Positions 26,234 to 31,187 of a stretch of 40,427 nucleotides of DNA are shown in pieces (position 1 is the stretch's first letter; each line of letters begins with the position of its first letter). Source of the DNA: Myxococcaceae bacterium (GTDB lineage: Bacteria > Myxococcota > Myxococcia > Myxococcales > Myxococcaceae); assembly GCA_017881345.1 (NCBI GenBank), contig JADGQZ010000256.1, positions 1-40,427 of the forward strand, read 5' to 3'. A program made the position numbers and the translations under genes. The notes beneath the pieces were generated by a model. The model saw only the letters and a list, made by a program, of their open reading frames with translations. It did not search any database and was not told where the DNA came from.

Positions 26234-27226
26234 TCAGGCCTCGACCCGCGGCCGATCGCCCGGCTCAGCCGGTCGCGCGCGCACCGCCTGCTGGAAGAGC
26301 TCCTGGCGCAGGTCGCCGCAGATCGCCGCGGTCTCGTCCACCACGTGGGTGAGGAGCGCGTGCAGGTCCTCGGTCGCCACGGTCCGTGAGGAGAGGAACG
26401 TCTCGAGCGCCGCGAGCCGCGCCTGGCACTCCAGCGGAGGGAACGCCTGATCCCCCGGCACCCGGATGCTGGCCAGGCGCAGATCCGCCTCGTGCAGACA
26501 GAACACCAGGGAGCGGGGGAAGCGGGGCTCGAGCATCAGGAAGGCCGCAACCTCGCCCGGCGTGACCCGCCCGGCCTTGCGCTTCATGAACGGCTCGAAC
26601 CCGGCGCAGGCCCGGAGCAGCGACAGCCAGAGCGTCTCCTCGCGTACCAGGTCCGGCGGGAGCTGCATCAGCGCGTGGTGGTGCACGTCGAGGATGCGCG
26701 CGGTCTGGCCAACCCGCTCCAGGAACAACCCGAGCATGATGAAGTCGACGGCGTTGTCGTGGAGCATCGTGTGCTCCACCGCACCGAGGATGAGCTGCGT
26801 GCCGGTGCGCACCTGCCGGTAGAACGCGTCGGGCCGGACTTCCCACTCGCGCTGCCCGCTGCCGCCGTGCAGCCAGAGGTGCAGCTCGTTGATCGCCTCC
26901 CAGGCCTCGAGCGACACCACCTCGCGGATGCTGCGGGCGTTCTCCCGCGCGGCGCTCACCGAGTTGGAGAGGCTGGACGGCACCGAGGCGTCCCAGGTCA
27001 GGAACCTCGTGACCGCCACCCCGTCCGCCAGTGCCGCGGAACCGAAGCGCGCGGCGAACGGCTCCTCCTCGCCGGATACCGCCAGCGCGGCATCCCAGAC
27101 CTGCGCCGGCGGGAGGATGGCGTCCAGCACCAGGCTCGAGGTGACGCGCAGCACGCGGGAGGTGCTCTCGGCGCGTTCCAGGTAGCGGCCCAGCCAGAAG
27201 CAGTGGTCCGCCACCCGGGAGATCAT
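26234..27226 (-). CDS. Alpha-E domain protein
   Basis: This 330-aa all-helical protein begins 'MISRVADHCFWLGRYLERAESTSRVLRV', the typical start of the alpha-E family (COG2307), with later conserved 'SVSAARENARSIREVVSLEAWEAINELH' and 'FLERVGQTARILDVHHHAL'. The track ORF from 28417 is a run-through over the upstream gene; ATG 27226 overlaps the ATP-grasp stop by four bases (ATGA), so translation is coupled. Alpha-E proteins nearly always accompany circularly permuted ATP-grasp enzymes and transglutaminases. Comparative genomics has proposed that these sets make or modify peptides by amide ligation; the biochemical role of alpha-E itself is unknown. Confidence 0.93.
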   Translation of the reverse strand: MISRVADHCFWLGRYLERAESTSRVLRVTSSLVLDAILPPAQVWDAALAVSGEEEPFAARFGSAALADGVAVTRFLTWDASVPSSLSNSVSAARENARSIREVVSLEAWEAINELHLWLHGGSGQREWEVRPDAFYRQVRTGTQLILGAVEHTMLHDNAVDFIMLGLFLERVGQTARILDVHHHALMQLPPDLVREETLWLSLLRACAGFEPFMKRKAGRVTPGEVAAFLMLEPRFPRSLVFCLHEADLRLASIRVPGDQAFPPLECQARLAALETFLSSRTVATEDLHALLTHVVDETAAICGDLRQELFQQAVRARPAEPGDRPRVEA

Positions 27227-28689
27227 CCATCTCCCTTCAGCACCCAGGTGTCCTTGCTGCCCCCGCCCTGGCTGCTGTTCACCACGTAGCTGCCCTCGCG
27301 CAGCGCCACCCGGGTCAGGCCGCCGGGAAGCACCCACGGCCCGTTGGCCGAGTTGAGAACGAACGGACGGAAGTCCACCCGACGCGGCGCGATGCATTGC
27401 CCCTGCGAGACCCACGTCGGGCAGGTCGACAGCTCGATGCGTGGCTGGGCGATGTAGCGCCGGGGCGAGGCGAGGATCCGGCGGCGGAACTCCTCGCGCT
27501 CCTCGGCGGTGGACGTCGGCCCCATCAGCATCCCGTAGCCGCCGGCCTCGTCGACGACCTTGACCACCAGCTCGGCGAGATGCTCGAGCACGTACGCCCG
27601 GTCGTCGGGCCGCGCGCACTGGTAGGTGGGCACCTGCGCCAGGAGCGGCTCCTCGCCCAGGTAGAAGCGGACCATCTCCGGCACGAACGGATACACGCCC
27701 TTGTCGTCGGCCACGCCGTTGCCGGGTGCGTTGGCCAGGGCGACGTTTCCTCCTGCCCAGGCCCGCATCAGGCCGCGCACGCCGAGCATCGAGTCCGGCC
27801 GGAAGACCTCTGGATCGAGGAAGTCGTCGTCGGTGCGCCGGTACACGACGTGCACCCGCCTCGGGCCACGGATGGTGTGCAGGAAGAGCCGGTCGTCGTC
27901 GACGAAGAGATCCGCCGCCTCGACCAGCTCCACACCCATCTGGCGCGCCAGGAAGCTGTGCTCGAAGTAGGCGGAGTTGTGCGGGCCGGGAGTGAGGACG
28001 ACGATGGTCGTCTCCTCCGGGGCGACCGGCGAGACGCTGCGCAGCGCGGTGGCGAGCCGGCCCGGATACTGGTTCACCGGCCGCACCCTCGTCGCCTCGA
28101 ACGCCCGGGCGAGGAGCCGCTTGGAGAGCAGCCGGTTCTCCAGCACGTACGAGACGCCGGACGGCGTACGGAGGTTGTCCTCGAGGACGCGGAAGACGCC
28201 CTTCCCATCGCGGATCAGATCGATGCCCGAGATGTGGATGCGCACGCCCGCGGGCGGCCGGACCCCGCGGATCGCCGGCAGGTACTGCGCCGAGCCGAGC
28301 ACCACCTCGGCCGGGATCGCACCCGCCTTCAGGATGCGCTGGTCGGCGTAGACGTCCTCGACGAAGGCCTCGAGGGCCAGCACCCGCTGCTTGAGCCCGC
28401 GCTCGAGCTGGTCCCACTCGCTGGCCGAGATGACCCGCGGCAGCAGGCAGACCGGGAAGATCTTCTCCACGCCGCGCGCGTCCGAGTACACCGAGAAGGT
28501 GACGCCCTGGTTGAGGAGCGCCGCCTCGGCGAGCGCCTGCGTGCGGGCGAACTGCTCGGCCGAACCGCTCGCCACCACGGCCTCGACCGTCGCCCTCAGC
28601 TTGTCCGTCGCGCCCAGCAGCTCGTCGAAGGTGCCGGGGAGCGCCGTGTAGTCGGAGAGCATCGAATGTTGAGTCATGGTCACTGACAC
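27223..28689 (-). CDS. Circularly permuted type-2 ATP-grasp protein (putative amide ligase)
   Basis: This 488-aa protein matches COG2308. Recognisable stretches are 'QRVLALEAFVEDVYADQRILKAG' near residues 85-107, 'RIHISGIDLIRDGKGVFRVLEDNLRTPSGVSYVLENR' near 148-185, 'TPGPHNSAYFEHSFLARQMG', 'RTDDDFLDPEVFRPDSMLG', 'NAPGNGVADDKGVYPFVPEMV' and 'SQGGGSKDTWVL' at the C-terminus. ATP-grasp enzymes join a carboxylate to an amine through an acyl phosphate, so peptide or amide formation is the expected chemistry. The start is GTG 28689, with GTG/ATG alternatives 6 and 12 nt later; no clear Shine-Dalgarno. First gene of an operon with alpha-E and the transglutaminase. Confidence 0.93.
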   Translation of the reverse strand: MSVTMTQHSMLSDYTALPGTFDELLGATDKLRATVEAVVASGSAEQFARTQALAEAALLNQGVTFSVYSDARGVEKIFPVCLLPRVISASEWDQLERGLKQRVLALEAFVEDVYADQRILKAGAIPAEVVLGSAQYLPAIRGVRPPAGVRIHISGIDLIRDGKGVFRVLEDNLRTPSGVSYVLENRLLSKRLLARAFEATRVRPVNQYPGRLATALRSVSPVAPEETTIVVLTPGPHNSAYFEHSFLARQMGVELVEAADLFVDDDRLFLHTIRGPRRVHVVYRRTDDDFLDPEVFRPDSMLGVRGLMRAWAGGNVALANAPGNGVADDKGVYPFVPEMVRFYLGEEPLLAQVPTYQCARPDDRAYVLEHLAELVVKVVDEAGGYGMLMGPTSTAEEREEFRRRILASPRRYIAQPRIELSTCPTWVSQGQCIAPRRVDFRPFVLNSANGPWVLPGGLTRVALREGSYVVNSSQGGGSKDTWVLKGDG

Positions 28690-28799: not shown

Positions 28800-30542
28800 G
28801 TGCCGAATCTCCTGGCCATGTCCTTCGAGGGCGCGCTCTGCCCGGCGTTCGACCTGCGCTGCCTCCACCCTGGCGCGACGCGTCCCGACGGCTGGGGCCT
28901 CGGGTACTACCCGCCGGGAGAGCAGTCGGTGACGGTGCACAAGGAAGCGGCGCCCATCCACGGCAGCCCGCAGTCGGAGTTCGTGCGCCGGGCGGACCAC
29001 AAGGAGTCGTCCACCTTCGTGCTCCACCTTCGCACGGCCCTCTGGGGCGCCCTGACCGACGCGAACACCCAGCCCTTTGCCCGTGCCTGGGGCGGCCGCG
29101 AGTGGCTCTTCGCGCACAGCGGGAGCCTGGAGCGACGGCCGATCCTGCTCCCCGAGCCGCTCTTCGAGCCGGTGGGGGCGACCGACAGCGAGTTCGTCTT
29201 CTGCGAACTCCTGAACCGCATGGCCGCCCGGCGCTGGCGCTCGCTCGGCGAGGCGGACCCCCAGGTGCTCGCCGACTGGCTCCTGGACCTGAACACGCTC
29301 GGCACGCTCGACGTGGTGCTGACCGACGGGCTTGACCTCCTCGCCTGGGCCGACCGCGAGCGCAGCGGCCTGACCAGCTGGCTCCTCCGCCCGCCCTACG
29401 GGCCGATCGCCCTCGGTGACGCGCAGGTCGGCGTCGAGTTCGGCCGCGACGGGGCGCGGAACCGCAAGGGCGTCATCGTCTCCAGCGCACCGCTGGAGGT
29501 CAGCGGCGCGGGGCCAGCTGCGGAGTGGACGCCGGTGCCGGCGGGAACGCTCTGGCTCGTGCGCCAGGGCGAGCTGCGCGCCGAGGCGCGATCATCCGCC
29601 GCTCCGATGGCCGGGGCCATGCCGCGCCGGATCCGCAAGCTGGACCGGCCTCCTCAGGGGGAGACCCGGCGGCTGGACGTCGTCCACCGCACCGTCTACC
29701 GCTACGCCGAGCCGGTGGAGCGAAGCACGCACGTCTTCCGCCTCACCCCGATGCACGACCGGAAGCAGAGCCTCCTCTCGCACTCGTTCGAGGTATCGGT
29801 CGAGGGCCAGGCCCGCGAGTACGACGACGTCTTCGGCAACCGGGTGCGCCGGCTGAGCGTGAACACGCCCTTCACCGAGATGGTCATCGAGGCCCGGAGC
29901 CGGGTGGAGCTGCTCGACACCGCGCCGCTGGCCTCCCGCCCGCTGCGCTCACACTCCACCTTCCCGCTGGTCTGGCTTCCCTGGCAGCGCAACCAGCTCG
30001 CCCCGTACCTCCTGCCTCCGGAGCTCCCGGAGAGCGAGCTCGGAGATCTCACCGACTACGCGATGAGCTTCGTGCGGCGGAACGACGACGACCTCTTCGA
30101 CACCCTGATGGACGTCAACCAGACCATCTTCGAGGAGTACCGGTACGTCCCGGGGAGCACTCACCTCGGCACCACCGCCTACCAGGTGCACGCCACGCGG
30201 CAGGGCGTGTGCCAGGACTTCGCGAACCTCTTCATCTGCATGATGCGGCTGCTCGGTGTGCCCGCGCGCTACGTGTGCGGCTACGTCTACACCGGCCCGC
30301 GGAGCTCGCCGCCCCATCCGCACGCCGAGGCCAGCCACGCCTGGGTGCAGGTCTATCTCCCCGAGGAGGGCTGGGTGGGCTTCGATCCGACCAACGGAAT
30401 CCTGACCCAGACCGACCACGTCCGGGTCGCCTGCGGCCGGGCCTACTCGGACGCCACGCCGACCTCGGGAACCCTCTTCGTGGGAGGGCGAGGCGAGGAG
30501 CTCGAGGTCTCGGTCCGGGTGGAGCTGGCGAACGGCGTCTGA
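28800..30542 (+). CDS. Class II glutamine amidotransferase-like / transglutaminase fusion, N-terminal Cys absent
   Basis: This 580-aa fusion starts at GTG 28800; an in-frame TGA nine nt upstream excludes a longer start. Residues 1-260 resemble class II (Ntn) glutamine amidotransferases: 'RPDGWGLGYYPPGE' , 'SSTFVLHLRTALWGA', 'NTQPFARAWGGREWLFAHSGSL' and 'TDSEFVFCELLNRM'. The nucleophile Cys expected right after the initiator Met is replaced by Pro ('MPNLLAMS'). Residues about 295-580 are a bacterial transglutaminase with its N-terminal beta domain ('VVHRTVYRYAEPVERSTHVF') and triad Cys in 'GVCQDFANLF' (about 471), His in 'ASHAWVQVY' (about 512) and Asp in 'GFDPTNG' (about 528). It is divergent from the ATP-grasp operon and surely part of the same system. 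The amidotransferase half may be inactive or structural. Confidence 0.9.
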   Translation: MPNLLAMSFEGALCPAFDLRCLHPGATRPDGWGLGYYPPGEQSVTVHKEAAPIHGSPQSEFVRRADHKESSTFVLHLRTALWGALTDANTQPFARAWGGREWLFAHSGSLERRPILLPEPLFEPVGATDSEFVFCELLNRMAARRWRSLGEADPQVLADWLLDLNTLGTLDVVLTDGLDLLAWADRERSGLTSWLLRPPYGPIALGDAQVGVEFGRDGARNRKGVIVSSAPLEVSGAGPAAEWTPVPAGTLWLVRQGELRAEARSSAAPMAGAMPRRIRKLDRPPQGETRRLDVVHRTVYRYAEPVERSTHVFRLTPMHDRKQSLLSHSFEVSVEGQAREYDDVFGNRVRRLSVNTPFTEMVIEARSRVELLDTAPLASRPLRSHSTFPLVWLPWQRNQLAPYLLPPELPESELGDLTDYAMSFVRRNDDDLFDTLMDVNQTIFEEYRYVPGSTHLGTTAYQVHATRQGVCQDFANLFICMMRLLGVPARYVCGYVYTGPRSSPPHPHAEASHAWVQVYLPEEGWVGFDPTNGILTQTDHVRVACGRAYSDATPTSGTLFVGGRGEELEVSVRVELANGV

Positions 30543-30566: not shown

Positions 30567-30947
30567 TCAGGCGTACTGCGCTTCACCGTTTCCGAAGGAC
30601 CAGTTCTCCTTCTTCACCTCGACCAGGCTGATGAACACGTCCTGGCGGCGGAGTCCGAGCCGCTGGTGGAGCCCGTCCGCCACCGCCCGGTAGAACGCCT
30701 TCTTCAGCTCGGTCGTCCGGCCATCGTTGAGCGTGACCTGGATGACGAGGCATTCCGGGCTGCGTTCCACGCCGAGATAGGTGCGATCGATGATCAGATT
30801 CTCCGGAACGTGCTCGGCGATGACCTGGAAGCGGTCATTCGCCGGGACGTTGAGCGTCTGGATCATCGCGTCGTACACGACTTCGCCGGCGGTGCGGCGG
30901 TACTCGGCGCTCTTCCCGCGTGGCAGATCGATTCGAACGAGTGGCAT
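30567..30947 (-). CDS. Tautomerase-family protein (4-oxalocrotonate tautomerase superfamily)
   Basis: This 126-aa protein starts at ATG 30947, giving 'MPLVRIDLPRGKSAEYRR' with Pro directly after Met, the catalytic N-terminal proline of this superfamily once Met is removed. The track start at 31064 would bury that proline and is rejected. Other family-like parts are 'VYDAMIQTLNVPANDRFQVI' and 'LKKAFYRAVADGLHQRLGLRRQDVFISLVEVKKENWSFGNGEAQ', close to the two-repeat, 125-130-aa MSAD/tautomerase group. A GGGAGG lies almost against the ATG. It probably catalyses keto-enol tautomerisation or a related reaction on an unknown cytoplasmic substrate. It is convergent with the amidotransferase-transglutaminase gene. 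Confidence 0.9.
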   Translation of the reverse strand: MPLVRIDLPRGKSAEYRRTAGEVVYDAMIQTLNVPANDRFQVIAEHVPENLIIDRTYLGVERSPECLVIQVTLNDGRTTELKKAFYRAVADGLHQRLGLRRQDVFISLVEVKKENWSFGNGEAQYA

Positions 30948-31187
30948 GCCTCCCAGAGTGCTCCGGAGCACGTCCGGCGGCCAGCACAGTCGGCGCGCAC
31001 CTGCTGGATCAGCCGCCGCGCCGCACGGCAGGGGGGTAGGTTGGGCTCGCGACAAGAATCTCACCCCGGGTGATGGCCTGCTGCAGCGCGACGACCCCTT
31101 CCGGCGTTACAGACCCTCGTGGTTCACGCTCGAGGAGACCGGCTCGGTGAGGCCGTTTGAGCTATGGTGCCTGACGAGGGAGTACGG

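Follow-up and report, generated by a model that had tools for sequence, protein, structure and literature searches.

A transglutaminase-fused class II amidotransferase domain of Myxococcota as a predicted pseudo-glutaminase with a retained substrate pocket

Class II glutaminase domains usually supply ammonia to a partner domain, and Ntn catalysis requires that the nucleophile sits on the N-terminal residue. What, then, does such a domain do when it opens with Met-Pro instead of Met-Cys and precedes an intact transglutaminase? This question is raised by a gene of a Myxococcaceae bacterium (assembly GCA_017881345.1, contig JADGQZ010000256.1), located in a stretch of 40,427 nucleotides that is referred to here as the window (Table 1).

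The fused gene and its first domain

The translated product of the fused gene begins with MPNLLAMSFEGALCPAFDLRCL. As a previous sequence-only reading had proposed, codon 2 is CCG and encodes Pro, and a Cys further upstream is impossible, since an in-frame TGA is separated from the GTG start by two codons only (GCT GCC). Residues 1-266 match the Pfam GATase_4 profile (PF13230) over positions 1-260 of 272, with an E value of 2.4e-64 and 217 bits against a cut-off of 23, while residues 292-530 match Bact_transglu_N and Transglut_core, with a catalytic triad (Cys471/His513/Asp529) that is invariant among 65 homologues. A convergent tautomerase-family gene (30567-31064, reverse strand) adjoins the fused gene on its 3' side and looks unrelated.

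Table 1. Position of the features discussed in the text. Coordinates are those of the window, except for the locus in the last line.
Feature	Coordinates	Strand	Evidence or remark
Alpha-E protein	26234..27230	-	PF04168, E 4.4e-66; genome scan G000:C38:26300-27226
Circularly permuted ATP-grasp type 2 (predicted amide ligase), divergent neighbour	27223..28689	-	PF14403, E 1.1e-162
In-frame TGA stop shortly 5' of the start codon	28791..28793	+	
Fused GATase_4 + transglutaminase gene	28800..30542	+	GTG start, 580 aa
Class II glutamine amidotransferase (Ntn-fold) domain, residues 1-266, predicted catalytically degenerate	28800..29597	+	Pfam PF13230, Foldseek 1te5
Residue 2, Pro (CCG), site expected for the Cys nucleophile	28803..28805	+	homologue columns
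Cys14, proposed substitute nucleophile	28839..28841	+	sole occurrence among 96 fused
Cys21 ("Cys 20" of the sequence-only reading)	28860..28862	+	present in 93/96 fused
Arg78, counterpart of the Arg gripping the glutamine alpha-carboxylate	29031..29033	+	96/96 fused, 23/23 unfused
Ser107, site of the oxyanion-hole Asn (HNG) in unfused members	29118..29120	+	homologue columns
Asp129, counterpart of the Asp gripping the glutamine alpha-amino group	29184..29186	+	96/96 fused, 23/23 unfused
Bact_transglu_N domain	29673..29909	+	PF08379, E 1.6e-22
Transglut_core domain, triad Cys471/His513/Asp529 intact	30066..30389	+	PF01841, E 8.2e-23
Divergent fused homologue (L136)	G139:C401:15500-20500, ORF from 1545		

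An AlphaFold2 model of the fused protein, built on a 65-sequence alignment, reaches a pLDDT of 90.8 and a pTM of 0.89. The Foldseek hits are 1te5 (TM 0.83, target length), EgtC structures including 4zfl (about 0.7) and GPATases, with beta-lactam synthetase (1mb9, 1jgt) as a weaker match (TM 0.2-0.3). Together with the PF13230 match and with an Arg78 and an Asp129 present in 96 of 96 fused homologues, these hits identify the domain as homologous to the Ntn amidotransferases. With the YafJ/GATase_4 type (PF13230; 1te5) it shares both the fold and the pocket residues, but it differs in lacking the N-terminal Cys and the oxyanion Asn and in being joined to a transglutaminase. EgtC, the gamma-glutamyl amidohydrolase of the ergothioneine pathway (4zfj/4zfk/4zfl), shares the Ntn fold but is an enzyme with Cys2. 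The window protein was rejected as an EgtC proper, scoring 46.3 bits with TIGR03442, whose cut-off is 218.65. Beta-lactam synthetase belongs to the AsnB-like lineage and carries a synthetase partner domain; together with those asparagine synthetase B relatives whose glutaminase domain is degenerate, it provides a precedent for a Cys-less class II glutaminase-like N-terminal domain attached to another catalytic domain.

Residues lost and residues retained

The columns of 96 distinct fused homologues were compared with those of 23 unfused class II domains, one divergent fused homologue (L136, discussed below) being left out of the fused set. Residue 2 is Pro in 83 and Leu in 13 of the fused sequences, versus Cys in 22 of the 23 unfused ones, the lone exception being an alignment row misplaced at its start. 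Position 107, occupied by the oxyanion-hole Asn in all 23 unfused domains, is Ser in 63, Ala in 28 and Gly in 5 of the fused ones. Among the 265 columns screened, these two alone are invariant in the controls (one exception being tolerated) and never seen in their control state in the fused set, in which both the Cys nucleophile and the Asn-Gly oxyanion hole of an active class II enzyme are found in 0/96. The domain had been described as well preserved on the basis of RPDGWGLGYY, HLRTALWGA and FAHSGSL; all three motifs are present, but the last one is degenerate, as HNG stands at that place in 23/23 unfused members.

It had also been anticipated that close homologues with Cys at position 2 would reveal a local change or error in the window. 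Given that none of the 96 has it, the loss of Cys2 is, on this alignment, a trait of the whole family rather than a local change, and by its predicted active site the fused GATase_4 domain of the family is a pseudo-glutaminase, very likely devoid of glutaminase activity.

The loss contrasts with the fate of the rest of the pocket. Arg78, Asp129, Asn89, His106, Gly108, Glu131, Asp30 and Gly31 are invariant in the 96 fused and the 23 unfused domains alike, and DGWG is invariant or nearly so in both. Asp129 corresponds to the residue that binds the alpha-amino group of glutamine. In GPATase, a bound glutamine analogue has its carboxylate gripped by Arg73, the equivalent of Arg78, and its side-chain oxygen contacted by the Gly102 amide (PMC7953260). 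These invariant residues make it likely that the domain binds a free-ended glutamyl group. The structure 4zfl, in which an EgtC C2A variant holds its natural substrate, indicates that such a pocket can bind a gamma-glutamyl compound even without the Cys. Since the catalytic pair is lost and the glutamine-holding residues are kept, the domain probably functions as a binding module, within a peptide-modifying operon, rather than as an enzyme; of the two alternatives left by the sequence-only reading, a non-glutaminase binding domain or the use of another nucleophile, it is the former that agrees with the absence of Cys2 from all 96, the missing oxyanion Asn and the invariant gripping pair. Two points count against this assignment: Arg78 and Asp129 could have been retained for folding, and nearly all members of the fused clade share Cys21, a state derived within that clade.

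Operon context and possible function

In the window, the ATP-grasp, Alpha-E and transglutaminase genes lie together. Of the loci that span at least 11 kb (48 in all), 37 have an Alpha-E gene in the neighbourhood and 35 an ATP-grasp gene, and the genes mostly follow one another as ATP-grasp, Alpha-E, GAT-transglutaminase; a DUF2126-type query matches 24 of the 48. In one locus (L032:2708-5983), the match is a second transglutaminase, fused to a putative amidoligase DUF2126 (PF09899). The class was represented by 121 genomes, and the fused gene and Alpha-E occur in exactly the same 27 of them, a coincidence whose nominal value of 1e-27 is no true p-value, for lack of independence among the genomes. 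The fused gene is patchy within genera, which suggests that its gains and losses concern the block as a whole. Alpha-E also accompanies the fused gene in all genomes of other lineages that have it, but is missing from both genomes that encode the Cys-bearing sister family (see below). Three genomes (G014, G086, G091) contain two copies of the fused gene and one Alpha-E gene. A role in anti-phage defence was considered and rejected, as the three operon proteins gave no PADLOC match.

The first three components of the described amidoligase operon (ATP-grasp, Alpha-E, transglutaminase, Anbu; Iyer et al. 2009, cited after PMC6376114) are shared with the window, whose transglutaminase differs in bearing an N-terminal pseudo-glutaminase, as predicted above. 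Elsewhere in bacteria the operon includes Anbu, an Ntn-fold protein for which no peptidase activity was detected (PMC6376114). A proteasome-family (PF00227) search of 14 genomes returned one HslV-sized gene in each of 13 and no other match, so Anbu is probably absent from these genomes. A putatively dead Ntn domain in the place of Anbu would be a suggestive parallel rather than a sign of homologous function.

The reading that we consider reasonably probable as a whole, judged from the residues retained, is that of a pseudo-glutaminase that kept its pocket and became a glutamyl-binding partner of the transglutaminase. An active class II (Ntn) amidohydrolase, free-standing and akin to YafJ/GATase_4, would have been the ancestor, and a single event would have fused it onto the N-terminus of a transglutaminase in an Alpha-E/ATP-grasp amidoligase operon. 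After the fusion, the Cys nucleophile and then the oxyanion-hole Asn would have been lost, probably in that order, while selection would have kept the pocket for a free-ended glutamyl group, with Arg to the carboxylate and Asp to the amino group. The present domain would hold, but not cleave, a ligand such as glutamine, glutamate or the end group of a gamma-glutamyl compound, and the bound group may be a substrate that is recruited, oriented or gated for the adjoining intact transglutaminase; such delivery or gating is plausible. A more specific version, which we put forward tentatively, is that the ATP-grasp enzyme adds glutamyl to a peptide or protein and that the dead pocket recognises this tag and passes it to the transglutaminase for crosslinking, transfer or removal.

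The best surviving competitor, doubtful though still worth considering, is a purely structural or docking domain, which would mediate dimerisation or keep the ATP-grasp and Alpha-E partners together, and whose pocket would bind no small molecule. The missing catalytic residues, the tight coupling of the genes to Alpha-E and ATP-grasp, and a two-domain model whose pTM of 0.89 suggests fixed packing would all suit such a scaffold. However, none of the 96 deviates in the gripping Arg and Asp or in the pocket around them, whereas the catalytic pair has drifted to Pro/Leu and Ser/Ala/Gly, and so clean a split of binding from catalysis is unexpected for a mere scaffold.

Alternative nucleophiles and evolutionary history

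It has to be considered whether the domain remains an amidohydrolase through another nucleophile, be it Cys14, Cys21, Ser8 or the amine of an N-terminal Pro. Cys14 and a "Cys 20" had been put forward for this role; the former number is correct, while the latter residue is number 21 when Met is counted as 1. Cys14 occurs in 1 of the 96 fused homologues, which is the window sequence itself. Cys21 is a better candidate, being present in 93/96 where the active sister family (L152, L153) has Gly, and all 96 have Ser or Cys at position 8. But Cys21 is replaced by Phe in the same-genus orthologue (L002/L031, 69% identical) and by Gly and Ser in the other two exceptions, which together with the uniqueness of Cys14 makes another nucleophile unlikely. 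As for the N-terminal amine, Met-Pro ends are normally trimmed to Pro, which would expose it; a tautomerase-like use of this amine across the family was nevertheless discarded, and is no general answer, because 13/96 homologues begin with Met-Leu, where Met is normally kept. Moreover, the oxyanion Asn is lost too, in all 96, so that rescued activity is unlikely, and Ntn chemistry wants its nucleophile on the N-terminal residue. On balance, we regard continued hydrolysis as highly improbable.

In a maximum-likelihood tree, all fused domains form one clade (support 100/96), which groups with the free-standing sister proteins L152 and L153 (96/97). The latter begin with MCELLALSFN or MCELLGMSFN and keep Cys2 and HNG. 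L136, from genome G139, is a fused protein that branches at the base of the clade: Cys is absent at the aligned position, where the sequence reads STRIVALSF after an extension of about 38 residues, HNG is kept, and YGWG replaces DGWG. It may represent an evolutionary intermediate or, alternatively, a protein with an unusual processed N-terminus. The order of losses that it indicates, Cys first and then Asn, is provisional, as L136 is a single gene with a long branch in a fragmented genome. Viral contigs were searched for the L136 variant and none was found.

A stepwise loss of catalytic residues is also what a decaying relic would show, that is, a domain without function that has been disappearing since the fusion. 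We give this view very little credence, since the pairwise dN/dS of the GAT domain (about 0.02-0.29) is near that of the catalytic transglutaminase half, and 35 of its 265 positions are near-invariant in a clade that covers several families and extends into other phyla. By these sequence estimates, purifying selection acts on the GAT domain as it does on the intact transglutaminase.

The distribution of the fused form was examined in several ways. Related genomes contain orthologues (L002-L007) whose domain is 51-69% identical and whose N-terminus reads MPNLLAMSFEG, MPNLLAMCFEG or MLNLLALSFEG. When about 85,000 species genomes were scanned, 80 loci emerged, mostly in Myxococcota, the others being in MAGs labelled Gemmatimonadaceae, Thermoanaerobaculia and Acidobacteria. 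Two patterns were used: M[PL]NLLA[ML][SC]F, which favours Cys-less N-termini, and [ST][DE]ANTQPF, which has no such bias and can by itself account for the numerous loci that have GTG/TTG starts or N-termini such as MPNVLAM, MPNYLGM and MPKYLAM. Two profile-based surveys were independent of the N-terminal motif. In the class of the source genome, every GATase_4 match examined in a transglutaminase fusion lacked Cys2, and every unfused one examined with a resolved start had Cys2 and HNG; apart from L136 and unfused domains, the phylum-wide survey gave no outliers. The source genome also encodes an ordinary class II domain (G000:C420:7203-8100, L132) with MCRLFGF and HNG, a handy internal control. 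A plasmid search for the fused form matched 310 records; the best ones listed align with the transglutaminase half, with none reaching 80% query coverage. That a sequencing or assembly error or a wrong start codon masks a normal Cys2 domain is a suspicion that a source genome of 517 contigs and 83% completeness might raise, but it has virtually no chance of being right and was already refuted by the homologues: Corallococcus isolates and the complete chromosomes of Sorangium cellulosum So ce26 and So0157-2 and of Minicystis rosea carry the same N-terminus, 51 of the 80 loci have no alternative in-frame upstream start, and 36 have a stop at most 10 codons upstream.

Degenerate class II glutaminase domains are a known theme, to which the transglutaminase-fused form is new; a literature search did not find the GATase_4-transglutaminase fusion described. 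In this family, a clean exchange of two residues would have made a class II glutaminase domain non-catalytic, and because both a sister family with its full catalytic set and a protein that may stand half-way (L136) survive, this conversion from enzyme to binding module can be traced and tested. As a functional annotation of the fused domain, the label "glutamine amidotransferase" given by the family profiles would be misleading. For the ATP-grasp/Alpha-E/transglutaminase operons, for which the literature searched names no substrate, the pocket would be a concrete point of entry, as it is expected to bind whatever bears a free glutamyl end.
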